64,000 nt of DNA, from contig JAEPQB010000001.1 in assembly GCA_017640725.1 (NCBI GenBank), forward strand, positions 558,001 through 622,000, written 5' to 3'. The position numbers were made by a program, and so were the translations under genes. Positions 7,730-33,778 of the stretch are shown here, one piece after another. The notes beneath the pieces were generated by a model. The model was given only the letters and a program-made list of their open reading frames with translations, did no database searches and was not told where the DNA came from. Positions within the stretch are counted from its first letter, which is position 1, and every line of letters begins with the position of its first letter. This DNA is from Kordiimonadaceae bacterium. Its GTDB lineage: Bacteria; Pseudomonadota; Alphaproteobacteria; Sphingomonadales; Kordiimonadaceae.

Positions 7730-8908
7730 TCAGAAAAACGCATGCAGGCCGGTTTGCGCCCGGCCCAGGATCAGCGTGTGAATGTCGTATGTGCCTTCAT
7801 AGGTGTTCACCGTCTCCAGGTTCACCATATGGCGCATCACATGATATTCGTCTGAAATACCATTGCCGCCATGCATGTCGCGGGACTGGCGCGCAATATC
7901 AAGCGCCTTGCCACAGCTGTTGCGCTTGATGATGGAAATGTTTTCAGGCGCCGCTGTGCCTTCATCCAGCATACGACCCACGCGCAAACAAGCCTGCAGG
8001 CCAAGCGTGATTTCGGTTAGCATGTCCGCGAGCTTCTTTTGCACCAGCTGCGTCTGCGCCAGCGGTTTGCCAAACTGCGTACGATCAAGCGTATACTGAC
8101 GCCCCGCATGCCAGCAGAACTCAGCGGCCCCCAGCGCACCCCAGGCAATGCCATAGCGCGCTTTATTGAGGCAACCAAACGGCCCACCCAGGCCTGATGC
8201 ATTCGGCAGCAGGTTTTCTTCGGGCACAAACACGTTATCGAGAACAATTTCACCAGTGATAGAGGCACGCAAAGAGAGCTTGCCTTCAATCTTGGGTGTG
8301 GAGAACCCCTCCATGCCGCGCTCAACGATAAAGCCACGAATTCGCCCATCGAGCTTCGCCCACACCACCGCAATGTCAGCAATCGGGCTGTTGGTGATCC
8401 ACATCTTCGCGCCCGTCAGGCGGTAACCGCCATCAACAGCTTCGGCGCGGGTTTTCATGCCACCGGGGTCAGAGCCATGGTCAGGCTCGGTGAGGCCAAA
8501 ACAGCCAATCATTTCGCCAGTCGCCAGCTTCGGCAGATATTTCTGGCGCTGCTCTTCACTGCCATAAGCGTTAATGGGGTGCATCACGAGTGAGGACTGC
8601 ACACTCATCGCGGAGCGGTATCCACTGTCAACGCGCTCCACTTCGCGCGCGATCAGGCCGTAAGCCACATGGTTCACGCCTGCGCCGCCGTACTCGGCCG
8701 GGATGGTTGCACCAAGGAGGCCCACTTCCCCCAGCTCGCGCATAATCGCGGGGTCAAACTTCTCGTGGCGGTTGGCCTCAAGGATGCGCGGCATTAAGTT
8801 ACCCTGGCAAAACTCGTGGGCAGACGCCTGAATAAGGCGCTCTTCTTCACTCAGTTGATCGGAAAGAAGGAAGGGATCATCCCACTTAAAAACTGGCTTG
8901 TCTGACAT
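7730..8908 (-). CDS. gcdH: Glutaryl-CoA dehydrogenase
   Basis: FAD enzyme that oxidises and decarboxylates glutaryl-CoA to crotonyl-CoA in lysine, tryptophan and glutarate breakdown. At 392 residues it has the usual length. It has the acyl-CoA dehydrogenase segments [15 protein letters not shown] and [15 protein letters not shown], the Arg-containing [16 protein letters not shown] segment, and the catalytic Glu in [17 protein letters not shown], which is characteristic of GcdH rather than of short-chain dehydrogenases. Its start ATG follows a weak AAGGATGTC stretch. It is the first gene of a unit with gcdG and is divergent from a LysR regulator. Confidence 0.95.
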
Positions 8909-9019
8909 CCTTGGCTCTCACCCTATAGTTAATGATTTGTGCGTATGCTTACAGCAACTAAACGCAGCTAAAAAGCGATGATTCTGTATATTTTCATGAT
9001 TTTTTGTTATGAACTTCTG

Positions 9020-9895
9020 ATGAAACGCAAGCTCCCTTCCTTAATCGCACTCGAATGTTTTGAAGCCGTTATGACGCACGGCCATGTCACGCGTGCTGCG
9101 GAAACCCTGAACCTGACGCAAAGTGCTGTCAGCAGGCAGATCAAATCGCTGGAAACATTTGTGCGACAACCCTTGTTCGCGCGCGAACGAAAGCGATTGG
9201 TGCCCACCGAGGCTGCCAAGCAGTTTGCTGAGCAGCTGACGCCGCTTTTGACCGAGCTTGAGAAAGAAACACTGCGCCTGATTACCTGGAGCGCTTATGA
9301 CCGGGTGCTCACGCTCGGCCTGCTGCCCACATTTGGATCACGCTGGTTGATCCCGCGCCTCAGCCGCTTCACGGGCGAGCACCCTGAAATTCAGATCAAC
9401 ATCGTGACTGGCCTAACGCACGAAGACTTTGTTGAAGCTGGCACGGATGTCGCCGTTCAATATGGCAATGGCAACTGGCCCGGGTTCGTCACGCACAAGC
9501 TGGTTGAAGAGACGGTGGTCGCGGCTGTAGCGCCAACTGCGGTGCCCGGTGACCACAAACCGTCCGTGAGTGACTTTGACCAGCTGCATATGCGCACACG
9601 GCCCGATGCCTGGCGCCAATGGGCGGATGCGACCGGCACGGAGATTTCAACCATGCAGGCCGGTACCCGGTTCGAAAATTTCACCATGATGATCGAAGCG
9701 ACCCGCGCCGGGCTCGGGGCCGCGATCCTGCCTGAGATGTATATCCGGGACGATCTTGAAAGCGGGCAGCTTGTCGCGCCATTCAGCGCGCCGGTAAAAA
9801 GCCCGGACGCTTATCATATTGTGTATGCGGAGCGTCATGCCGGCACAGAAAAAATCGAGGTTTTCAAAAACTGGCTGATCAGCGAAGCAGGCTGA
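9020..9895 (+). CDS. LysR-type regulator, probable regulator of gcdH-gcdG
   Basis: GcvA-like LysR transcription factor. An N-terminal winged helix-turn-helix (LIALECFEAVMTHGHVTRAAETLNLTQ... SAVSRQIKSLE) is followed by a substrate-binding domain with LGLLPTFGSRWLIPRL. The start at 9020 gives 291 residues and the conserved MKRKLPSL beginning; an in-frame ATG at 8978 would add 14 hydrophobic residues and neither has a good ribosome site. It is divergent from gcdH with about 110 bases between, the usual arrangement for a LysR regulator and its target. Glutarate or glutaryl-CoA as inducer is an inference. Confidence 0.88.
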   Translation: MKRKLPSLIALECFEAVMTHGHVTRAAETLNLTQSAVSRQIKSLETFVRQPLFARERKRLVPTEAAKQFAEQLTPLLTELEKETLRLITWSAYDRVLTLGLLPTFGSRWLIPRLSRFTGEHPEIQINIVTGLTHEDFVEAGTDVAVQYGNGNWPGFVTHKLVEETVVAAVAPTAVPGDHKPSVSDFDQLHMRTRPDAWRQWADATGTEISTMQAGTRFENFTMMIEATRAGLGAAILPEMYIRDDLESGQLVAPFSAPVKSPDAYHIVYAERHAGTEKIEVFKNWLISEAG

Positions 9896-9907
9896 TTGGG
9901 CTGCTAA

Positions 9908-10609
9908 TTACGTGGACCCAACTGAGCTCAGCTCCGGGTCACTCGTATAAGACCCCGCCAGCAGCCAGGCGATGCCGAAGGTCATCAGCGCCCAACCCTC
10001 AACCCAAAAGATGGCGTCGCTGCGCACCAGCCAAAAATGTACAATCCCATAAATTATGGCCATGCCAGCAATCATGGCGATGGCGAGAATGCGGTATGCC
10101 AGCGCGCGGCCCGGATGGCCTTTTTCTTTCGCCCTTTTTGAGAAAAACCACAGCAGCACGACCAAGCAGATGAATAGTGGTATCGCAGCCACATAGTGGA
10201 TCACATCTGCTGAGGTACCCAAGAACCCCGTGATAGCGTCAATCCAGGTTGATGGCGCAAAAACAGGGCAAGCCTGCCCAGTTGTGACCTGGTCTGCAGT
10301 GCATTCAATGTCTGTGGGGAACAAGGCGACAAACACGGCCAAAACCGCCGCCACCTTGCTGATGTAATATTCAAGATCGCGTCCGTGCTTGCCGTTGTAG
10401 GCCGCCAGAAAAAACCCGACAACAATCAGCGATCCCACAAACAAGTCGCCAGAGTTGGTCCAGTAGGTGGCGCTGATGGAGTTCACCGGCCAATAAACAT
10501 CGGAAAGCCAATAAGTGAAGAAGGCGAGGAATAGTGCGATCCCACCGACAATCTGGCGCATGGTTTTGTGATTGATTTGCCGACTTTGCAGAGCGTCCGT
10601 TTTTGTCAT
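9908..10609 (-). CDS. Unidentified multi-spanning membrane protein
   Basis: A 233-residue protein that I do not recognise with certainty. It has six to seven hydrophobic segments, the clearest being QIVGGIALFLAFFTYWL, FVGSLIVVGFFLAAY, VAAVLAVFVALFPT, IPLFICLVVLLWFF, ILAIAMIAGMAIIY and the C-terminal ALMTFGIAWLLAGSY. The loop between segments 3 and 4 has two Cys (IECTADQVTTGQACPV), a possible disulfide. The ATG at 10609 has GGAGGA 4 bases upstream, preferred over a start 9 codons earlier. It could belong to a DUF998-like group, but this is weak. Confidence 0.75.
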   Translation of the reverse strand: MTKTDALQSRQINHKTMRQIVGGIALFLAFFTYWLSDVYWPVNSISATYWTNSGDLFVGSLIVVGFFLAAYNGKHGRDLEYYISKVAAVLAVFVALFPTDIECTADQVTTGQACPVFAPSTWIDAITGFLGTSADVIHYVAAIPLFICLVVLLWFFSKRAKEKGHPGRALAYRILAIAMIAGMAIIYGIVHFWLVRSDAIFWVEGWALMTFGIAWLLAGSYTSDPELSSVGST

Positions 10610-14252: not shown

Positions 14253-16337
14253 TTACCAGATGGCGACGCGATCTTCGGGTGCCAGATACAATGCGTCAGT
14301 TTCTTTGACACCAAACGCCTCGTACCATTCCGCCATATTGCGCACGACGCCGTTGACCCGATATTCAGCTGGTGAATGCGGGTCTGACTTCAGCCGGGCA
14401 ATCAAAGCATCGTCCCGGTACTTGCGCTTCCAGACCTGTGCCCAGGCAAGGAAGAAGCGTTGATCACCGGTCAGGCCGTCAATAACCGGCGCTTCTTCGC
14501 CGCCAAGCGAGAGCTTGTACGCGTGATACGCCATTGACAAGCCACCAAGGTCACCGATGTTTTCACCGAGGGTAAAACGCCCATCGACGAAGTTGCCTTC
14601 TACTGGCTCAAAAGTGTTGTACTGAGCAACAAGAGCGTCCGCTTTCACTTCGAAGTTGGAGCGGTCCGCGTCGGTCCACCAGTTGCGCTGAACGCCTTTA
14701 TCATCAGACTTTGACCCCTGGTCATCAAACCCGTGGCCCATCTCGTGCCCGATAACTGCGCCAATGCCGCCGTAGTTGACTGCCGGGTCTGCTGCCAGGT
14801 CAAAGAATGGTGGCTGCAGGATGGCGGCAGGGAACACAATTTCATTGAACTGCGGGTTATAGTAGGCGTTAACCGTTTGCGGCGTCATGAACCATTCGTC
14901 TTTGTTGGTTGGCCGTGAAAGGCGCGCGATCTGATCGGCATAATTATAGTTCGCCACTGACTTGGCGTTACCGAACAAATCACCTGCTTTGATTTCAATG
15001 CCCGACAGGTCGCGCCACTCATCAGGGTATGCGATTTTCGGATTGAAGGACGCAAGCTTGGCACGCGCTTCCACCTTCGTGTCTTCGCTCATCCAATCCA
15101 GGCCATCAATTCGCTGACCAAGCGCCGTGCGCAGGTTTTCAACCAGCTGCACCATTTCAGCCTTCGCTTCTGGTGGGAAATAGCGGTCCACATAAACCTG
15201 GCCAAGGGCTTCCCCAAGAGCGTTACGGGCGCCGACTCGTTGCACACCCCGTTCCCAGCGCGCGCGCTGTTGCGGCTGTCCAAACAAAGTCTGGCCAAAG
15301 AAACTGAAGCTTGCAGTATCAATTTCTTCAGATAGCAGCGCAGCATGATTGTTGATGAGGTGGTAGGTCAGGTATGCCTTCCAGTCATCAATTGAAATCT
15401 CGTTCACGAGCGCCACTGCGTCAGCAACAGGGTCCGGATGCGAGACATTGAGGTCTTCAAGGTCTGAAATGCCAGCGCCCGCCATGAAGGCATCCCAGTC
15501 GAAGCCAGTGTATTTGGCTTTGAAGTCCGCAACAGACATTGGATTGAAAGTCATGTCGCGGTTGCGGCGCTGTGCCCGGGGCCATTGCTTTTCCGCAATG
15601 CGTGTTTCAAGCGCAAGAATAGCCGCCGCTTTCTCTTCTGCGTTTTCAACGCCTGCAAAGGTCAGCATTTCTGCAATGTGCGCTACATAAGCTTCGCGCT
15701 TGGCGTTAAAGTCTTCGCTGTCCTGCAGGTAATAGTCACGGTCAGGCAAACCAATGCCACCGATGCCCATGTTCAGCACATAGCGATCTGGGTTTCCGCG
15801 GTTGATGCCAATGCCTGCCGTGATCGGCGAGCTTGTATTGTCACGACCAGCGGCACCAAAGGCGCGCACCAGGTCTTCCATGCTGTTAATGGAAGCGATC
15901 GCAGCAAGGGCTGGGCGCAGCGGCTCAATGCCCAGAGAATTTACCGTCTCGATGTCCATGTAGCTGTTGTAATAGTCGCTGATTTTCTGTTCGACTGACC
16001 CGGCTTCAAACGTGCCCGCTGCAAGATCATCGATGATTGATTTTGTTCGATCACGAGAGCGATCACCCAGCACATTAAAGGCGCCGTAGTTACTGCGGTC
16101 AGCCGGAATTTCGAACTCGTCAATCCAGGCGCCGTTAGCAGCGACAAAGAAATTTTCGCCCCAAGCGACGCTTGGTTTTGCGGCCGTCATATCGATACCA
16201 AAGCTGCCAAGCTCAGGCTTGGCTGCTTCGGCAACCATGTCTGTTTCATTGCTTGCAGTTGTGTCATTGCCGCTGTCAGAACACGCAGCCAGCATAAGCG
16301 CGCTCAGCGCCACTGATGTTTTCAAGAACTGTTTCAT
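14253..16337 (-). CDS. M13-family zinc metallopeptidase, lipoprotein (PepO/neprilysin-like)
   Basis: Envelope endopeptidase of the neprilysin family, 694 residues, cutting short peptides. A lipoprotein signal peptide ends in the lipobox LAAC (Cys19), so it is anchored to a membrane facing the periplasm or outside. The zinc site is HEMGH at about 531-535 with the third ligand Glu in ENIGDLGG near 590. The substrate-binding NAYYNPQFNEIVFP precedes it. The C-terminus ends RVAIW, lacking the Cys of the CxxW ending in many members. A terminator follows; MscS lies upstream on the same strand with a 164-base gap. Confidence 0.94.
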   Translation of the reverse strand: MKQFLKTSVALSALMLAACSDSGNDTTASNETDMVAEAAKPELGSFGIDMTAAKPSVAWGENFFVAANGAWIDEFEIPADRSNYGAFNVLGDRSRDRTKSIIDDLAAGTFEAGSVEQKISDYYNSYMDIETVNSLGIEPLRPALAAIASINSMEDLVRAFGAAGRDNTSSPITAGIGINRGNPDRYVLNMGIGGIGLPDRDYYLQDSEDFNAKREAYVAHIAEMLTFAGVENAEEKAAAILALETRIAEKQWPRAQRRNRDMTFNPMSVADFKAKYTGFDWDAFMAGAGISDLEDLNVSHPDPVADAVALVNEISIDDWKAYLTYHLINNHAALLSEEIDTASFSFFGQTLFGQPQQRARWERGVQRVGARNALGEALGQVYVDRYFPPEAKAEMVQLVENLRTALGQRIDGLDWMSEDTKVEARAKLASFNPKIAYPDEWRDLSGIEIKAGDLFGNAKSVANYNYADQIARLSRPTNKDEWFMTPQTVNAYYNPQFNEIVFPAAILQPPFFDLAADPAVNYGGIGAVIGHEMGHGFDDQGSKSDDKGVQRNWWTDADRSNFEVKADALVAQYNTFEPVEGNFVDGRFTLGENIGDLGGLSMAYHAYKLSLGGEEAPVIDGLTGDQRFFLAWAQVWKRKYRDDALIARLKSDPHSPAEYRVNGVVRNMAEWYEAFGVKETDALYLAPEDRVAIW

Positions 16338-23550: not shown

Positions 23551-26037
23551 ATGGACGACGAACCTTTTGGAAACATCAATACCGACCTTAGTGTCACAGT
23601 AGGCGGAAGTGTTACTGGAACCATTGAAGAAGAGGGCGATGTTGATTTTTTCGCCGTTCAGTTGGAAGCAGGTGTCACCTATCAGATAGACCTCGAGGGC
23701 AGCCGCACGGGTCAGGGGTCACTGCTTGACCCATTCCTGACCGGTATATTCAATGCGGATGGTATCCCCGTTGCCAATTCAAACGATGATGGCGGCGTTT
23801 CCACCAATAGCCGGATTACATTCACACCCAGTGAATCCGGTACATATTTTATTGGTGCCAGTCACTTTGACAATTTTACGCTGCTGGACACAGGCAGCTA
23901 CACTTTGTTTGTCGAAGAAGCGGACCTCAGCACCCGACCTGATCCTATTTCCTTGTTCCAAGTGCCCGATACAGGTGACGTTATCATTGATACGCTCACC
24001 TTCTTTCAGGCTTACGGAAACGGTGTTGATACGGTTAACCTGACTTTCAGCATTCCCGGTGAAAACCCGGAATTTCGCACATCTTTCAACCTGGATGACG
24101 ACGATATTACCCCTTTCGCCATTCCATTGTCCCCCACGGCGGAAGGCTTTTTCCGGGACGGATTGGATCAAATCGAAGGCTTTGCCAACATTCGCTTCAC
24201 GGAAGTTGAAGATGAGGGCGAATCTTTCGGCACGCTCAGAATTTTCGGCAACACATTTTCCAGCGGCAGAACAATTGGTTTGGCCGGCTTGCCAAGCCAG
24301 TCTCCTGCGGGCAGCGATATCGCGATTTTCGAAGGCCGAATTGGCAGCGATGGTTTGCTGCGGTTTGTGGTGCTTCATGAACTTGGCCATGCGATCGGGC
24401 TTGAGCATGCTGACCTTGAAGAATCACCCGAATTCCCCGAAGAGTTTGCCGGTGCAGAATTTACGCTGCTTGTGCCCAGCTTTTCGTCGGTCTTTTTCCC
24501 GACCGCGACACGTGTGGACTTCTATCCAACCACCTTCAGCTATTTGGATATCGTGGCGCTGCGCCAAATATACGGTGCGCCCGACACACCGGAAACGGAT
24601 GATGTTTATACGTTTGATGTGAACGAACGCTATTGGGAAACCATTTTTGACACCGGCGGAACCGATACGTTGCAGATTATTGGTGGTGACGAAGCGGTTA
24701 ACATCAACCTGTCCCCGGACTCTTCTGCTTTTGGCGGATCCTTCATCGATGTCGGCACCACCATTCAGTATTTTAACTCCTTTGGCGGGCTTGTTGGAAC
24801 AAGAAGTGAAACGGTATTCATCAGCCCGGAAACGGTAATTGAAAACATCATCACATCCGACGGCGACGATGTGATTGTCGCCAATGCCGCCAACAACCGG
24901 CTGGAGGGAGGCCTGGGTGCGGACCGCATCCGCGGCGTGGGCGGCGATGATCGAATTCTGGGCGGCGGAGATGCTGACCGGCTTTCCGGCGGTGGCGGCA
25001 ATGACACCGTAATCGGCGGCGCCGGTAGCGATATTGCCGGTGGTGGCAACGGGAATGACGTTTTGTTTGCCGGCGCCGAAGATGCCGGCAATGACCTCGT
25101 TCTTGGCGACAATGGCAATGATGTTGTGGCAGGCGGTGCCGGCGACGATACGCTTGTTGGCGGAAGCTACATCGGCTCTGGCCTGATCGTTGCCGTATCT
25201 GCATCGGATGTTAACGGGACCGCAAGCGACACGCTATTTGGCGGCGCGGGTGACGATCTCATCATCACCGGTAGTTTTGAAGACACAGACGGCGACCGCA
25301 GTGTCGACAACGGCGAAATTGTCAATGGCAGCGGAAACAGTGTCGCCTTTGCCGGCACTGGTGACGACACCCTCTATGGCGGAGATGGTCACGAACAGTT
25401 GGGCGGCGGTACCGGCGATGACAGCATCTCGGGCGGCGCTGGCAACGACACCATATATGGCGGTCGCAATGACCAAGCCTCAACGTCTCAGAATGACCGG
25501 CTGGAAGGCGGTGATGGCAATGACATTATCTTTGCCTCGGGGGGTGCTGACATTGTGACTGGCGGCGACGGCGACGACTCGTTATTTGGCGGCAGCCAAA
25601 ACGACGAGGTTTCTGGCGGCAATGGCAATGACACCATTTTTGGCGGCACGGGTAATGACGTGGTCAACGGCGACGACGGCGCAGACGATATTTTTGGCGG
25701 CGGCGGTCGGGATGTCATCAATGGCGGCGCCGGCGATGACACATTGCGGCCCAGCGGTGGCAACGACACATTGTCGGGCGGCGCAGGCAGCGACGTGTTC
25801 ATGTTTGCGCAAAACCATGGTGCCGACCGGATTGACGATTTTGACCTGGACGACGACAGCTTGGACCTTTCTGGCACAATTACAGAATTTGCCAGTGTTG
25901 CAGAGGTTACAAACGCAGCAAGTGAGGTTATGCAAGATGGTCAATCGGGCGTGTTGATTGACACGGGCGGCACCAGTTCCATTTTCATTGTTGGATTATC
26001 ACTCGATCAGCTCGCTTCCGTTACAGTCCTGCTTTGA
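23551..26037 (+). CDS. RTX-repeat metalloprotease-like secreted protein
   Basis: An 828-residue acidic protein with no signal peptide, as expected for type I secretion. Residues 10-120 resemble a bacterial pre-peptidase C-terminal domain (GDVDFFAVQLEAGVTYQIDL). Residues 140-343 look like a matrixin/serralysin catalytic domain with the zinc motif HELGHAIGLEH at 276-286. From about 440 to 755 there are many glycine-rich calcium-binding nonapeptides (GGxGxDxhx), for example GGAGNDTIYGG. A hydrophobic C-terminal end follows. The Met-turn methionine is absent: there is no Met between residues 2 and 749. ABC/MFP secretion genes are not in the window. It may be an active protease or a diverged adhesin-like product. 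Confidence 0.9.
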   Translation: MDDEPFGNINTDLSVTVGGSVTGTIEEEGDVDFFAVQLEAGVTYQIDLEGSRTGQGSLLDPFLTGIFNADGIPVANSNDDGGVSTNSRITFTPSESGTYFIGASHFDNFTLLDTGSYTLFVEEADLSTRPDPISLFQVPDTGDVIIDTLTFFQAYGNGVDTVNLTFSIPGENPEFRTSFNLDDDDITPFAIPLSPTAEGFFRDGLDQIEGFANIRFTEVEDEGESFGTLRIFGNTFSSGRTIGLAGLPSQSPAGSDIAIFEGRIGSDGLLRFVVLHELGHAIGLEHADLEESPEFPEEFAGAEFTLLVPSFSSVFFPTATRVDFYPTTFSYLDIVALRQIYGAPDTPETDDVYTFDVNERYWETIFDTGGTDTLQIIGGDEAVNINLSPDSSAFGGSFIDVGTTIQYFNSFGGLVGTRSETVFISPETVIENIITSDGDDVIVANAANNRLEGGLGADRIRGVGGDDRILGGGDADRLSGGGGNDTVIGGAGSDIAGGGNGNDVLFAGAEDAGNDLVLGDNGNDVVAGGAGDDTLVGGSYIGSGLIVAVSASDVNGTASDTLFGGAGDDLIITGSFEDTDGDRSVDNGEIVNGSGNSVAFAGTGDDTLYGGDGHEQLGGGTGDDSISGGAGNDTIYGGRNDQASTSQNDRLEGGDGNDIIFASGGADIVTGGDGDDSLFGGSQNDEVSGGNGNDTIFGGTGNDVVNGDDGADDIFGGGGRDVINGGAGDDTLRPSGGNDTLSGGAGSDVFMFAQNHGADRIDDFDLDDDSLDLSGTITEFASVAEVTNAASEVMQDGQSGVLIDTGGTSSIFIVGLSLDQLASVTVLL

Positions 26038-26077
26038 ATGGACTGACCATGGATGGGCGGGCAAAGGGGAACCAGCC

Positions 26078-26770
26078 ATGACTTTGCCTGCCTATGGACG
26101 ACTAATGGGAAAACGCGCACTGGTGACCCAGGCCGAGGATTACATGGGCCCCGCGACCGTGGAGCATTTCGCGCGCGAAGGGGCGGAAGTTATCACGGAC
26201 AATTCCGTACTGACGGACCCAAACAGACCACAAGAACTGATCGAAAGTGCAGGCAACATTGATATTCTGGTCGCCAATCTGGCTTCAGAAAATCTTTTCG
26301 GCACGCTGGTTGACGACCTCGCAGATGATGATTTCGAGCACGCCTTTGAAGTCATGGTCTATCCCCTCCACCGCTTGGTGCGCGCCGTTGCCCCGCAAAT
26401 GAAAGCACGGGGTGCTGGCAAAATTATCGTGTTTGGCAGCGCTGTACCGCTTAAAGCCATGGGAAGACTTGCGGCCTACTCCGCTGCCCGAGGTGCCCAG
26501 ATTTCTTACGTTAAGTCTGTTGGCGTTGAACTGGCGCGGGACAATATTCAGCTTAATTTGATTGCCCAAAACTGGGTAGAAAACCCCGCCTACTATCCAC
26601 CTGAAATGCAGGAAAACCCCAAGTTTCAGGCCAACCTGAAGCGAGAAGTCCCTCTCGGCCGTTTGGCGCGTGCCGAAGAAGACACAGCACTCGCCGTGTT
26701 CCTGGCCTCTGATGAAAGTGATTTCTTTGTTGGCCAAGCCATCCCATTCAGTGGTGGATGGACTCAGTGA
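26078..26770 (+). CDS. Putative halohydrin dehalogenase (SDR fold)
   Basis: A 230-residue protein of the short-chain dehydrogenase/reductase fold that lacks the NAD-binding TGxxxGxG. Instead it has T17-x4-Y22-x-G24 (TQAEDYMG), the halide-pocket motif, and S121-x12-Y134-x3-R138 (GSAVPLKAM... AYSAARG), the Ser-Tyr-Arg triad of halohydrin dehalogenases; ordinary SDRs have Lys. These enzymes turn vicinal haloalcohols into epoxides, releasing halide, and open epoxides with cyanide, azide or nitrite. The segment VENPAYYPPEM and the ending GQAIPFSGGW also fit. AAAGGGGA precedes the ATG. It is 40 bases after the RTX gene. Natural substrate unknown. Confidence 0.85.
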   Translation: MTLPAYGRLMGKRALVTQAEDYMGPATVEHFAREGAEVITDNSVLTDPNRPQELIESAGNIDILVANLASENLFGTLVDDLADDDFEHAFEVMVYPLHRLVRAVAPQMKARGAGKIIVFGSAVPLKAMGRLAAYSAARGAQISYVKSVGVELARDNIQLNLIAQNWVENPAYYPPEMQENPKFQANLKREVPLGRLARAEEDTALAVFLASDESDFFVGQAIPFSGGWTQ

Positions 26771-26874: not shown

Positions 26875-27462
26875 TTGAGCGATAAGAAAAAACTGATTGT
26901 CGGCATTGGCGGCGCCAGCGGCGTCATTTATGCGATCCGCTTACTTGAGGTACTGCGCGCGTCAACCGATGTGGAAACACATTTGGTGATGTCCAAAACC
27001 GCCCGCATGAATATCAATATCGAAACAGACATGTCTGTTGCGGACGTAGAAGCACTGGCTGATGAAGTGCACAACATCGCACAAGTGGGTGCCTCTATCG
27101 CCAGCGGGTCGTTTAAAACGCACGGTATGATTGTCGCCGCTTGCTCCATGAAAAACCTGTCTGCGATCGTGCACAGCCACGCAGATGACTTGCTCACCCG
27201 AGCAGCAGACGTGGCGCTTAAAGAGCGACGGCGGCTGGTGCTGATGCCGCGCGAAACACCGCTGCATGCTGGCCACTGCAAATTGATGATGGAAGCCAAC
27301 CAATTGGGGGCCATTGTCGCGCCGCCGATGCCAGCTATGTATACCAAGCCCCAATCGCTTGATGACATCGTCAATCATACCGTTGGTCGCGTACTTGATT
27401 TATTCGAATTTGAGACCGGCCTTGTTGACCGCTGGCAGGGTCCCGGCTCGAACGGCACATAA
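26875..27462 (+). CDS. ubiX: Flavin prenyltransferase UbiX
   Basis: Flavin prenyltransferase of 195 residues that attaches a dimethylallyl group to FMN, making the cofactor of UbiD-type decarboxylases in ubiquinone synthesis. Motifs: GIGGASGVIYAIRLLEVL for FMN, the conserved GSFKTHGMIVAACSM loop, and the C-terminal RRLVLMPRETPLHAGH and MPAMYTKPQSLDD. It starts with TTG, 6 bases after TAGGAG. Stop and the next start are 2 bases apart, so it is co-transcribed with the epimerase gene. UbiD is not in the window. Confidence 0.95.
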   Translation: MSDKKKLIVGIGGASGVIYAIRLLEVLRASTDVETHLVMSKTARMNINIETDMSVADVEALADEVHNIAQVGASIASGSFKTHGMIVAACSMKNLSAIVHSHADDLLTRAADVALKERRRLVLMPRETPLHAGHCKLMMEANQLGAIVAPPMPAMYTKPQSLDDIVNHTVGRVLDLFEFETGLVDRWQGPGSNGT

Positions 27463-27464
27463 CC

Positions 27465-28439
27465 TTGATTGACTATCGACTAAGCATCGAAACGTGGGAC
27501 CTGAAGGTGCCGTTTGTTATCTCGCGGCGACAGTGCGACAGCGCTGAAGTCCTAACCATCAAGCTTGAGCATGCTGGTGCGGTCGGTCGCGGTGAAGCGG
27601 CAGGCATCAACTACAAAGGGGAAACCCCCGCCACCATGCGGGCAGAGCTCGAAGCCTTTATGATGCAACATAAAGAGCCGTTAACACGTGACCTGTTGAT
27701 GGATATCTTGCCGGCTGGTGGTGCGCGCAATGCCCTTGATTGCGCCTTTTGGGACCTTATGGCCAAGCGCACGGGCAAAAGCATTTTTGACCTGACCGCC
27801 AGTTTAGCCAAGCCAGTTACTTCAGCAATAACGCTCAGCATCGATGCGCCGGCAAGGATGGCGAGCAAAGCAATTGAAACTCCGAGCTCGGTGCTCAAAT
27901 TGAAACTTGCAGACAAAAGCGCGCTTGAATGCGTGGCAGCAGTTCACCAGGCACGACCGGACGCTGAGATAATCGTGGACGCCAATGAGGCGTTGAATTT
28001 TGACCTGCTCAGGGACCTTGCGCCGAAGCTCAATGACATGAATGTAAAGCTGATTGAGCAACCCCTGCCGCGCGGCGAAGATGACTGCCTTTCGGAATAC
28101 AAAAGTCCCGTTCCCTTGTGCGCTGACGAAAGCTGCATGACAGCGTCCGATGTGCCGCACCTGCGGACCCTTTATGACGTGATCAATATCAAACTTGATA
28201 AATGCGGCGGTCTAACAGCGGCGCTTGACCTCGCGACGGCTGCGGAATTGCACAGCATGGATATGATGGTGGGCTGCATGCTAGGCACATCGCTTGCTAT
28301 GGCGCCCGCAATGGTGATTGCACCGCGCTGCAAGTATATTGACCTTGACGGCCCTATGCTGCTCAAAAACGATCGCGAGAATGGTCTTGCCGTCAAAGAC
28401 GGCACCATCGAACCGCCATCGCCGCTTCTTTGGGGCTAA
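27465..28439 (+). CDS. Enolase-superfamily dipeptide epimerase (L-Ala-D/L-Glu epimerase-like)
   Basis: A 324-residue member of the mandelate racemase/muconate lactonizing subgroup. Metal ligands are Asp in IIVDANEAL, Glu in LIEQPLP and Asp in PLCADES. The acid-base pair is Lys in LKLKLAD and Lys in VINIKLDKCGG, which marks the dipeptide-epimerase type that helps recycle murein peptides. The specificity could differ; many relatives act on other dipeptides. It begins with TTG 2 bases after the ubiX stop, so its translation is probably coupled to ubiX. Confidence 0.88.
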   Translation: MIDYRLSIETWDLKVPFVISRRQCDSAEVLTIKLEHAGAVGRGEAAGINYKGETPATMRAELEAFMMQHKEPLTRDLLMDILPAGGARNALDCAFWDLMAKRTGKSIFDLTASLAKPVTSAITLSIDAPARMASKAIETPSSVLKLKLADKSALECVAAVHQARPDAEIIVDANEALNFDLLRDLAPKLNDMNVKLIEQPLPRGEDDCLSEYKSPVPLCADESCMTASDVPHLRTLYDVINIKLDKCGGLTAALDLATAAELHSMDMMVGCMLGTSLAMAPAMVIAPRCKYIDLDGPMLLKNDRENGLAVKDGTIEPPSPLLWG

Positions 28440-30774: not shown

Positions 30775-30896
30775 TCTCCCCCAATAAACTAATTTCTGGA
30801 CTGTGGGGTCTTGTGGCCTAAATTCCTTTGGCATGAGTTTCCGCCCGCGCGTTGAATAAAAATGCACCATCGGGCTCACCAAGGAGAGAGAGCGAC

Positions 30897-31856
30897 ATGG
30901 CACTGCCAGAACAGCTTCAGAATTTGCGCATTCCGGTGATTGGTTCACCGCTTTTCATCATTTCAAACCCCGACATTGTTATCGAGCAATGCAAAGCTGG
31001 CATCGTGGGCTCCTTCCCGGCGCTCAACGCACGCCCTGGCCCGGTTCTCGAGGAATGGCTCAAGCGCATTACCGAAGAACTGGACGCCTATAATCAGGCA
31101 AACCCTGACAAACCGGCTGCACCGTTTGCTGTGAACCAGATTGTGCACCGCTCCAATGATCGTCTGCAGCATGATGTGGACATGTGCGTAAAATACAAAG
31201 TGCCAATCATCATCACCTCACTGGGTGCCCGTGTTGAAGTGAACGATGCGATTCACTCTTACGGTGGCATCGTTCTGCATGACATCATCAACAATAAGTT
31301 CGCCAAAAAGGCCGTGGAAAAAGGCGCGGATGGCCTGATCGCTGTAGCAGCGGGTGCCGGCGGCCATGCAGGCACAACGTCACCGTTCGCCCTGGTGCAA
31401 GAAATCCGTCAATGGTTTGATGGCCCAATTGCGCTGTCCGGATCCATCGCCACCGGTGATGCGGTCTTGGCCGCAGAAGCCATGGGCGCAGACCTCGGTT
31501 ACATTGGCTCCGCATTCATCGCGACCAAAGAGGCCAACGCGGATGAGCGCTACAAGCAATCGATCGTTGATTATGCCGCAGACGACATTGTCTACACAAA
31601 CCTGTTCACTGGCGTGCACGGTAACTATCTGAAACCATCCATTTTAGATGCCGGCATGGACCCGGAAAACCTGCCGGAAAGTGACCCGTCAAAAATGAGC
31701 TTTGGCTCAGGCGGTAGCGAAAAGTCCAAAGCCTGGAAAGACATTTGGGGTTGCGGCCAGGGCATTGGTGCGATCGACAAAGTGCAGACCACTGCGGAGT
31801 TTGTGGACCAGCTTGCAGACCAGTATTTCGCCGCAAAAAAGCGGGTTGCCGCATAA
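30897..31856 (+). CDS. Nitronate monooxygenase (2-nitropropane dioxygenase-like)
   Basis: FMN enzyme of 319 residues that oxidises alkyl nitronates such as propionate 3-nitronate, releasing nitrite. The TIM-barrel motifs are PVIGSPLFIISNP at the start, GADGLIAVAAGAGGHAGT and SGSIATGDAVLAAEAMGAD. AAGGAGAGAG 5 bases before the ATG sets the start. The sequence matches the class with the HAGT loop; members include trans-enoyl-ACP reductase FabK relatives, so substrate is not certain. It is separated from kbl by 122 bases and has its own terminator. Confidence 0.87.
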   Translation: MALPEQLQNLRIPVIGSPLFIISNPDIVIEQCKAGIVGSFPALNARPGPVLEEWLKRITEELDAYNQANPDKPAAPFAVNQIVHRSNDRLQHDVDMCVKYKVPIIITSLGARVEVNDAIHSYGGIVLHDIINNKFAKKAVEKGADGLIAVAAGAGGHAGTTSPFALVQEIRQWFDGPIALSGSIATGDAVLAAEAMGADLGYIGSAFIATKEANADERYKQSIVDYAADDIVYTNLFTGVHGNYLKPSILDAGMDPENLPESDPSKMSFGSGGSEKSKAWKDIWGCGQGIGAIDKVQTTAEFVDQLADQYFAAKKRVAA

Positions 31857-32029: not shown

Positions 32030-32719
32030 ATGACACGACAGCTCGGGCTTATTTTGTTTTCTGTGATGTTCTGGACATATTCGGCGACGGCGCTGCAGGA
32101 CAGCATCACGTCTGGCGAGATAGAGACATCTGACGGCACCGAGTTTGTGACCATCGTTCGGCCTACGTCGCCAGATTTCACCGTCTCCTACCCCATTCTG
32201 TTTTCACCCGGTAGCCGTGACTATCCTGAACCCACCTTCTTTTGGGGAGATGAACCATCAAATCTGGGTTGGCTGATCGTTCAAACCGAACAGCTTTACC
32301 GGGGTGGGCCAGAAGACCTGAAGCGCGTGATGGATGCAGCCATGGCGAAACTGCGCCAAGAGGGCTTCCAAATTGCTGACGTGCATTTGATAGGGTGGAG
32401 CGCAAGCAGCGGCGCCGCCGCCCGCCATGCCGCTGCAATGGGTGCTGAAATTCGCTCTGTTTCTTTCATCCCCGGTTATGGTGGCGGTCGCAGTGTTGAG
32501 CGCATGTGCGCGCACAAAAACCTGCGCGTGAATTTCATCACCGGCTCAAAAGACGGCAGCTGGCTCAGGGGCGCAGAAGGCATGCGTGACAAGCTGTTGT
32601 CTTGTGGCAACCAGCATGTGGCCTTTCACGTCATTGAAGATGGTGGCCATGTGCTGCGTGAAATTTCTGGCGAGCCGCTGTTCAACGTGCTCAATGCAGC
32701 ACGCCCAAATGCGCATTAG
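32030..32719 (+). CDS. Exported alpha/beta-hydrolase-like protein
   Basis: A 229-residue protein with a signal peptide (MTRQLGLILFSVMFWTYSATAL). The nucleophile elbow is HLIGWSASSGAAA (Ser in the GxSxS setting) and the C-terminal His is in VIEDGGHVLRE, as in alpha/beta hydrolases; the acid residue may be Asp in FITGSKDGSW. GGAGGG before the ATG sets the start. No specific substrate can be named. Its stop overlaps the stop of the convergent second nitrilase by 4 bases (TTAG). Confidence 0.75.
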   Translation: MTRQLGLILFSVMFWTYSATALQDSITSGEIETSDGTEFVTIVRPTSPDFTVSYPILFSPGSRDYPEPTFFWGDEPSNLGWLIVQTEQLYRGGPEDLKRVMDAAMAKLRQEGFQIADVHLIGWSASSGAAARHAAAMGAEIRSVSFIPGYGGGRSVERMCAHKNLRVNFITGSKDGSWLRGAEGMRDKLLSCGNQHVAFHVIEDGGHVLREISGEPLFNVLNAARPNAH

Positions 32720-33648
32720 TCTGTCTGCTCGGTCACAATCTTTTGTGGCCGTTCGTCCACTGTCAGAGTGAATATGTCTGGCCGCGCATAGTGGCCGACC
32801 ACATCCATGTCGTACTTGCCACGGGTGATTTCTGCCTTGTCCAATTCTGCGGTCAGGATGGTTTCCTTGCCATAAACCGGTTCTGCCAACACTTTGCCAA
32901 GCGGTGAGACGATGCAGCTGCCGCCGCGGATCAGCACCGTGTCTGGCGCATCGCCCTGCACCGGCTTGAAATCGGCGGGGCCGTTCCCACGTGTCATGAA
33001 CTGGCAGGCAGACAGCACAAAACACCGACCTTCAAGCGCGACCGTTTGCATTGTGGGCAGCCATACGTCGCGGTCATCGACTGTCGGCGCACAGTAAAAC
33101 TCAACGCCCTTTTGATACATCGCGAGCCGTAGTTGCGGCATATAGTTTTCCCAGCAGATCGCACCACCTAACCTGCCAATGTCGGTTTTCGGTGCCGCAA
33201 GCGTTGAACCGTCACCAAAGCCCCACACCACACGCTCAAGCGCAGTTGGCATCAGCTTGCGGTGCTTGCCAAGCAACGATCCATCGGATGAAAAATATAA
33301 AGCCGTGCAATAGAGCGTACCGCCGTCTCGCTCGATCACGCCGACAACCAGGTTGGTATTGTTCTTGGCGGCCATCTCACCGATGGCGGCAACCTCCGGG
33401 CCCGGTACATTAATGGCACTCTCGTAGTAGCGCCGAAAATCGTCGCGCCCTTCATCTGAGCGAGAGCCAAGCCGCACACCAAAATCGATGCCTTTGGGAT
33501 AGCCACCGACAAAAGCTTCGGGAAACACCACAAGGTTGGCTTTCTCAGCCGCCGCTTTTGACGTCCAGTCACCCAACTTTTCAATCGTTTTAGGTGTATC
33601 AAAAAGCGGTGTGCCCACCTGCACCACCGCGCCAATGATTGTGGTCAT
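32716..33648 (-). CDS. Nitrilase (second copy in the window)
   Basis: Nitrilase-superfamily enzyme of 310 residues with a complete triad: Glu in FPEAFVGGYP, Lys in KHRKLMPTALERV and Cys in GGAICWENYMPQLR. The CWENYMP motif is that of classical aliphatic or aromatic nitrilases. GGAGATT lies 5 bases before the ATG at 33648. It has no signal peptide. It differs clearly from the copy at 4211-5188, so the two are unlikely to be recent duplicates. It converges with the hydrolase gene and is near nitronate monooxygenase. Substrate unknown. Confidence 0.92.
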   Translation of the reverse strand: MTTIIGAVVQVGTPLFDTPKTIEKLGDWTSKAAAEKANLVVFPEAFVGGYPKGIDFGVRLGSRSDEGRDDFRRYYESAINVPGPEVAAIGEMAAKNNTNLVVGVIERDGGTLYCTALYFSSDGSLLGKHRKLMPTALERVVWGFGDGSTLAAPKTDIGRLGGAICWENYMPQLRLAMYQKGVEFYCAPTVDDRDVWLPTMQTVALEGRCFVLSACQFMTRGNGPADFKPVQGDAPDTVLIRGGSCIVSPLGKVLAEPVYGKETILTAELDKAEITRGKYDMDVVGHYARPDIFTLTVDERPQKIVTEQTD

Positions 33649-33778
33649 GTTCAATCTCCAACCAGCCCTCATGAACAATAGTCAGGTTTGCCAGCCGCAC
33701 CAGCATTCATTGCTAGCCATAACAAAAGCTTGATGTTAGCGTTTTCTATACAGTTCTTGAGTTGGGGGAATCACAAAG

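Follow-up and report, generated by a model that had tools for sequence, protein, structure and literature searches.

The question raised by this locus is whether the open reading frame at 26078..26770 on the + strand of the window (the whole 64,000-nucleotide stretch of Kordiimonadaceae DNA analysed here) encodes a halohydrin dehalogenase (HHDH) or an ordinary SDR, and what such an enzyme would do in its host. HHDHs are of value in the synthesis of chiral building blocks. The gene, assigned on the basis of its reading frame, homology and a fold match, encodes 230 amino acids followed by a stop codon, and a probable Shine-Dalgarno sequence, AAGGGG, was read at 26064..26069 (+), 8 bases before the ATG at 26078. 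Two motifs were located in the translation. The first, T17-QAED-Y22-M-G24 (26126..26149, +), represents the nucleophile (halide) pocket and aligns with T14, Y19 and G21 of HheB; the second, S121-x12-Y134-x3-R138 (26438..26491, +), represents the catalytic triad and aligns with S118, Y131 and R135 of the same enzyme. Translation and a motif check reproduced exactly the reading frame, coordinates and numbering of these six residues given in the original prediction, which had also described the protein as SDR-like without the NAD-binding glycine motif. Inspection of the sequence bore this out, TQAEDYMG standing where the SDR cofactor motif, T-G/A-x3-G/A-x-G (PMC11976700), would be. The same source describes both HHDH motifs as found here and mentions natural variants at the Thr position. 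A genome search revealed a single HHDH in the host together with 12 other SDR matches; in the seven of these that were examined, the HHDH motifs were absent (0/7), Lys was present (7/7) and the glycine motif was found in 6/7. With a GC content of 54.1%, close to the 53.6% of the whole window, the gene shows no sign of fresh acquisition.

Generic annotation would make the protein an ordinary NAD(P)-dependent SDR oxidoreductase. Pfam adh_short_C2 matched with 112 bits and adh_short was also above its cut-off, both carrying generic SDR names only, and the 25 NCBIfam matches listed, out of 202, were generic SDRs as well, scoring 79–113 bits against cut-offs of at least 215; among these 25, no model reached its curated cut-off and none was an HHDH model. 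The solved structures give a different picture. The best sequence matches were 7b73 (HheD2; PMC9629495) at 5.7e-71, 4zd6 (HheB) at 2.6e-66, 5b12, and 8xxb (according to its title an HheD8 mutant with chloride) at 6.9e-62, followed by far weaker matches to 6a41 (1.7e-34; 35.9% identity, calculated from joined pieces) and halohydrin epoxidase A (7e-28) and by others weaker still. An AlphaFold model of the monomer, computed from 30 aligned sequences (the window protein and 29 relatives), had a pLDDT of 92.2 and a pTM of 0.90. Foldseek ranks 1–9 with this model were all HheD2, HheB or HheD8 (1.2e-28 to 8.8e-26; TM by query 0.93–0.95; rmsd 1.1–3.1 Å), after which came 6a41 (3.5e-19), the first NAD-dependent SDR (8.7e-19) and others weaker, so that the predicted fold is closest to known HHDHs with NAD-dependent SDRs far behind. 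The missing glycine-rich motif, Arg in place of Lys, the best matches being HHDHs in both sequence and structure, and the contrast with the SDRs of the same genome together lead us to reject an ordinary SDR, a reading to which we attach almost no credence. The region 26078–26770 thus very probably encodes a cofactor-independent HHDH, as judged from sequence and modelled fold, and is one more enzyme of known catalytic type, a new member of the HHDH family.

The original prediction had called the known family small. That description is dated, since a single scan using one genome per species resulted in 53 loci, 50 of them at 50% identity or more. The triad S-x12-Y-x3-R was kept in all 50 of these and T-x4-[FY]-x-G in all 49 that have an N-terminus (L040 is cut off); when the window protein was aligned with 29 of the 50, T17, G24, S121, Y134 and R138 were invariant. 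The HHDH motifs are not chance matches, and their conservation, together with the structural matches above, upholds the identification as an HHDH. The remaining three loci were without the Ser-Tyr-Arg triad (L050 and L051 have Lys, L052 has neither motif); these were rejected as HHDHs, being ordinary SDRs, and neither the trees nor the counts over 51 loci given below include them. Motif-based identification has precedent, as a search with the two motifs identified 37 HHDH genes, and activity was confirmed for a selection of 19 (PMC4989007). Relatives of HheD12 are described from all marine species but one of the Pseudomonas pertucinogena lineage (PMC6922532). Within the host order, 9 of 196 genomes matched at 1e-30, eight from Kordiimonas plus a more distant one (L069). 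The latter sequence (L069 79-600), from another family of the order, is truncated and 41% identical, and keeps S-x12-Y-x3-R.

By analogy with characterised HHDHs, the enzyme most likely converts vicinal halohydrins to epoxides without needing a cofactor, and we infer from the same relatives that it would be a homotetramer lacking NAD. In such a mechanism, which follows the Ser-Tyr-Arg scheme described for HHDHs in PMC4989007, Ser121 would hold the vicinal halo-alcohol while Tyr134, its pKa lowered by Arg138, would take the proton of the substrate; the resulting alkoxide would displace the adjacent halide to give the epoxide, and the released halide would sit in the pocket lined by Thr17, Tyr22 and Gly24. 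Because the reaction is reversible, the enzyme should also open epoxides with anions, namely azide, cyanide, nitrite or halide.

Genes surrounding the HHDH gene offer little to this chemistry. Directly upstream lies a gene for an RTX serralysin-type metalloprotease (23551..26037, +; 828 amino acids, with the sequence HELGHAIGLEH), which ends 40 bases before it. Downstream are ubiX, encoding a flavin prenyltransferase (26875..27462, +), and a gene for a DgcA-like racemase of the enolase superfamily (27465..28439, +; 394 bits, slightly below the NCBIfam cut-off of 400). Genes resembling tdh and kbl are also among the neighbours. The earlier observation that the neighbours give no dehalogenation pathway therefore holds for the window. 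As ubiX had one match in each of 18 of the 19 genus genomes, it is regarded as a housekeeping neighbour. The DgcA-like racemase was considered as a partner of the HHDH and set aside, the enolase-family gene on plasmid pSA2 (see below) being only 21% identical to it over 152 positions. Further downstream, a nitronate-monooxygenase-type gene (30852-31856, +) lies 4 kb and a nitrilase-type gene (32716-33678, -) 6 kb from the HHDH gene. As HHDHs accept cyanide and nitrite, the two genes were considered as suppliers or users of these anions and set aside; clusters containing them were seen in 6/8 and 3/8 of the Kordiimonas loci, respectively, several of these loci being too short for a verdict.

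The HHDH gene was present in 8 of the 19 genus genomes (7 of 15 when only genomes with a completeness of 90% or more are counted), seven of these eight being the genomes of loci L001–L007. In all eight loci the RTX protease gene is directly upstream on the same strand (in L006 it is cut by the contig end), with a gap of 31–66 bases over the possible start codons, and a simple scan for promoter-like and terminator-like sites on the + strand detected none in this gap. The closest protease copies in the seven other HHDH-bearing genomes were 64–71% identical; in the 11 genomes lacking HHDH, identity did not exceed 56%. These observations would fit a functional operon in which an exported protease and an intracellular enzyme are under one control. 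However, the same eight genomes also share the closest copies of ubiX (71–84% identity vs 50–56% in the others, one of which had no match) and of the DgcA-like gene (56–67% vs at most 48%), and since the protease, DgcA-like and ubiX copies behave alike, the eight genomes give the impression of a single clade that has inherited this gene order. Two HHDH-bearing genomes moreover hold further protease copies at 56–57%, and no biochemical logic links a protease to an HHDH. A functional link between the two is possible; that they make up a functional operon we consider unlikely. Another gene stands between HHDH and ubiX in 5/8 loci, with a formyl transferase domain in L001, and an alignment of the intergenic DNA of the eight loci revealed no shared element.

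Genes for the further conversion of an epoxide were sought elsewhere in the host genome. No epoxide hydrolase of the EHN type was found there (the EHN search matched 1/14 control genomes), nor any haloalkane dehalogenase match at E<=1e-15. Two weak epoxide-hydrolase-like matches (26–30% identity) were obtained, one with an internal stop. Across the genus, haloalkane-dehalogenase-like genes occurred in 4/8 genomes with HHDH and 2/11 without. The host genome contained 21 matches to the GST_N_3 family of glutathione S-transferases (GST), a family that matched 6/14 control genomes, and no GST was found near any of the eight Kordiimonas HHDH genes. Outside the window, the host genome also has four matches to PF04820 (Trp_halogenase) at 454–633 bits; as this family matches 5/14 control genomes, halogenase function is not implied.

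An enzyme derived from SDRs by loss of NAD binding could also have its main reaction elsewhere, for example in the opening of epoxides with another nucleophile, halohydrin turnover being a side activity. In chemistry this overlaps with the HHDH assignment; it differs in the role proposed. The absence of dehalogenation genes around the HHDH gene in the window and its restriction to fewer than half of the genus genomes, always behind the protease gene, are in its favour, and PMC4989007, published in 2016, allows for other physiological functions, noting that only two of the HHDH genes then known adjoin an epoxide hydrolase gene. Against it, the motif residues are as in HheB and HheD2, and some relatives adjoin genes for epoxide hydrolases or haloalkane dehalogenases. 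We regard a mere side activity as a real contender but on balance improbable, and the enzyme's natural substrate could be something other than a halohydrin. Returning to the HHDH reading, the natural role could, tentatively, be halohydrin removal or epoxide turnover, acting on compounds that a marine bacterium encounters. A halohydrin that the cell produces or takes up from its surroundings could be converted to an epoxide and then perhaps conjugated to glutathione.

The gene sets around relatives in other bacteria are more interesting than the window gene itself, and their epoxide-handling neighbours give hints, at the level of annotation, of the natural job of HHDHs. These sets were annotated on one or two loci each and carried to the others by clustering; in 6/50 loci the HHDH was read by match coordinates, and neighbour calls there and elsewhere are approximate. 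Among relatives of about 50–60% identity, an epoxide hydrolase gene is adjacent in L033, L045, L046 and L128, and a haloalkane dehalogenase gene in L046 and L048. In Hwanghaeella (L045) the epoxide hydrolase gene overlaps the end of the HHDH gene, its product best matching 8hgu, the isobutylene epoxide hydrolase 9c2g and 1ehy, and in the Halieaceae-titled L033 an epoxide-hydrolase-like gene lies 58 bases upstream. On plasmid pSA2 of Novosphingobium resinovorum (L128 6808-8681), an annotated epoxide hydrolase gene is located 11 bases upstream of an HHDH that is 51% identical to that of the window and has Ser for Thr in motif 1 (S-x4-Y-x-G). This plasmid, typed as conjugative, was the only plasmid record matching at 1e-30. 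In Roseomonas sp. MO-31 (L048 2119-3845), the first ATG of a haloalkane dehalogenase gene (NCBIfam PRK00870, 311 bits; cut-off 265) is 47 bases after the HHDH stop codon, and a divergent TetR gene precedes the HHDH gene.

Other sets include GST genes. At 14 loci, L014 and its kin, most of them titled as gammaproteobacteria, genes for glyoxalase I and a GST are located downstream of HHDH, with malate synthase G in 8 and an RND pump in 8. A TetR regulator had been considered for the 204-amino-acid gammaproteobacterial neighbour and was rejected, Pfam identifying a GST; likewise, L014 has an alpha/beta hydrolase (14797-15612) whose best matches mark it as esterase-like, and it was discarded as an epoxide hydrolase. 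In the alphaproteobacterial loci L027, L028 and L031, one of them titled PS1 clade, a GST gene abuts the HHDH start and a gene for O6-methylguanine-DNA methyltransferase follows 166–205 bases after the HHDH match; L027 has in addition a TauD-type dioxygenase and a ferredoxin reductase upstream. This combination looks like an electrophile-handling set. Loci from Rhizobiales contain genes for TetR, acyl-CoA dehydrogenase, alcohol dehydrogenases (L018) and branched-chain-type ABC transporters.

Counted over the window and its 50 relatives, a GST was found within 8 kb of HHDH in 20/51 loci and within 1 kb in 13/51, and none was shown in 31/51. GSTs occurred in 5 of 17 synteny groups, or in 3.7 on average when one random member was taken per group, compared with 1.26 expected from a density of 349 Pfam GST_N_3 matches in 16 genomes (65.7 Mb), giving P(>=4) of about 0.03. 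This linkage is weak because the test was post hoc, the HMMs were seeded from the same loci, one merged group holds 23 loci and the density comes from 16 genomes. Mapped on the tree with all rows, the state 'GST or epoxide hydrolase within 1 kb' required 8 changes (L022, L040 and L044 not counted); with the group table and without unlabelled rows, 3 changes were needed for GST and 2 for epoxide hydrolase.

The genus Kordiimonas is marine. Its HHDHs might represent their own subgroup of a wide, largely marine radiation of enzymes that make or clear epoxides from natural halohydrins, the epoxide being passed to GSTs, epoxide hydrolases or DNA-alkylation repair; we offer this as a speculative proposal, more doubtful than probable. 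If true, the physiological role of HHDHs would lie in natural organohalogen metabolism and not in the breakdown of industrial pollutants. Given an HHDH that one clade of a marine genus retains on its chromosome, and relatives linked to epoxide hydrolase, GST and haloalkane dehalogenase genes, the question of role becomes testable by knockout and substrate screening. A literature search, covering few subscription papers, returned no paper on HHDH in Kordiimonas and none joining HHDH, glutathione S-transferase and epoxide.

One relative brings several of these activities together. In Bradyrhizobium erythrophlei GAS478 (L046, FSRD01000002.1, 7995-10552), the end of the HHDH gene overlaps by 4 bases with a frame of 628 amino acids (8666-10552), the N-terminal half of which is an epoxide-hydrolase-like domain 66% identical to the enzyme of L045, and the C-terminal half a LinB-like haloalkane dehalogenase (7pw1, 2.7e-121; PRK03592, 476 bits, cut-off 241). 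From its sequence this is an apparent epoxide hydrolase–haloalkane dehalogenase fusion, the second half of which may start from an internal start. In the class, 37 of 385 genomes matched the frame (E<=1e-110), all from query residue 286 on, that is, in the dehalogenase part; a check on 10 of the 37 loci revealed neither a fused epoxide hydrolase nor an HHDH within the short flanks. Among the matches listed in the literature search, which covered few subscription papers, titles and abstract openings named no such fusion. By annotation, this natural locus places next to one another the three activities that make up the synthetic trichloropropane pathway. According to PMC5539299, that pathway was assembled artificially from a haloalkane dehalogenase, HheC and EchA, and there had been no report up to then of a natural organism degrading 1,2,3-trichloropropane aerobically; genes of this kind seemed very rare in databases in 2012, according to PMC3414701.

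Phylogenetic analysis placed the eight Kordiimonas HHDHs in one clade in tree 1 (99/97), which includes an outgroup row (L055) read as a 39-amino-acid fragment and has long branches, and in tree 3 (100/99), from which all SDR outgroups and 6a41 were dropped and to which L128 was added. In tree 2, without L055, L057, L058 and L047, they were unresolved at the base, and deeper forks were poorly supported. An AU test on tree 2 rejected a single clade of Kordiimonas, HheD2 and HheD8 (log-likelihood 39 lower; p 0.001, a descriptive value as the group was chosen after tree 1 had been seen). The HheD references were HheD2 and HheD8 only, the latter a triple mutant; no HheE was recognised among the solved structures listed, and the trees included no verified HheE. 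Because the test rejects this clade, a simple D-type label, judged against these two references, was rejected for the window HHDH, to which no subtype is assigned.

Compared with known enzymes, the window HHDH is closest to HheD2 (7b73), its top match in both sequence (53.8% identity over 221 residues) and fold, which has the same triad but Phe as the aromatic residue of motif 1, where the window HHDH has Tyr. The B-type HheB of Corynebacterium sp. N-1074 (4zd6; 50.2% over 223 residues) shares that Tyr as well as an identical triad; in the trees it forms a long branch with sequences titled Halieaceae, Rhodobiaceae and Myxococcota, apart from Kordiimonas. HheD8 (8xxb, the triple mutant with chloride) is 47.7% identical and its fold match ranks ninth; it groups with HheD2, apart from the window HHDH. 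The N-P-x-Y-[YF]-P loop of the window HHDH is as in HheD2 and HheD8, and less so in HheB. With classical SDRs (FabG and glucose 1-dehydrogenase models) it has in common the Rossmann fold and the Ser and Tyr of the triad; it differs from them in having no NAD motif and in having Arg for Lys.
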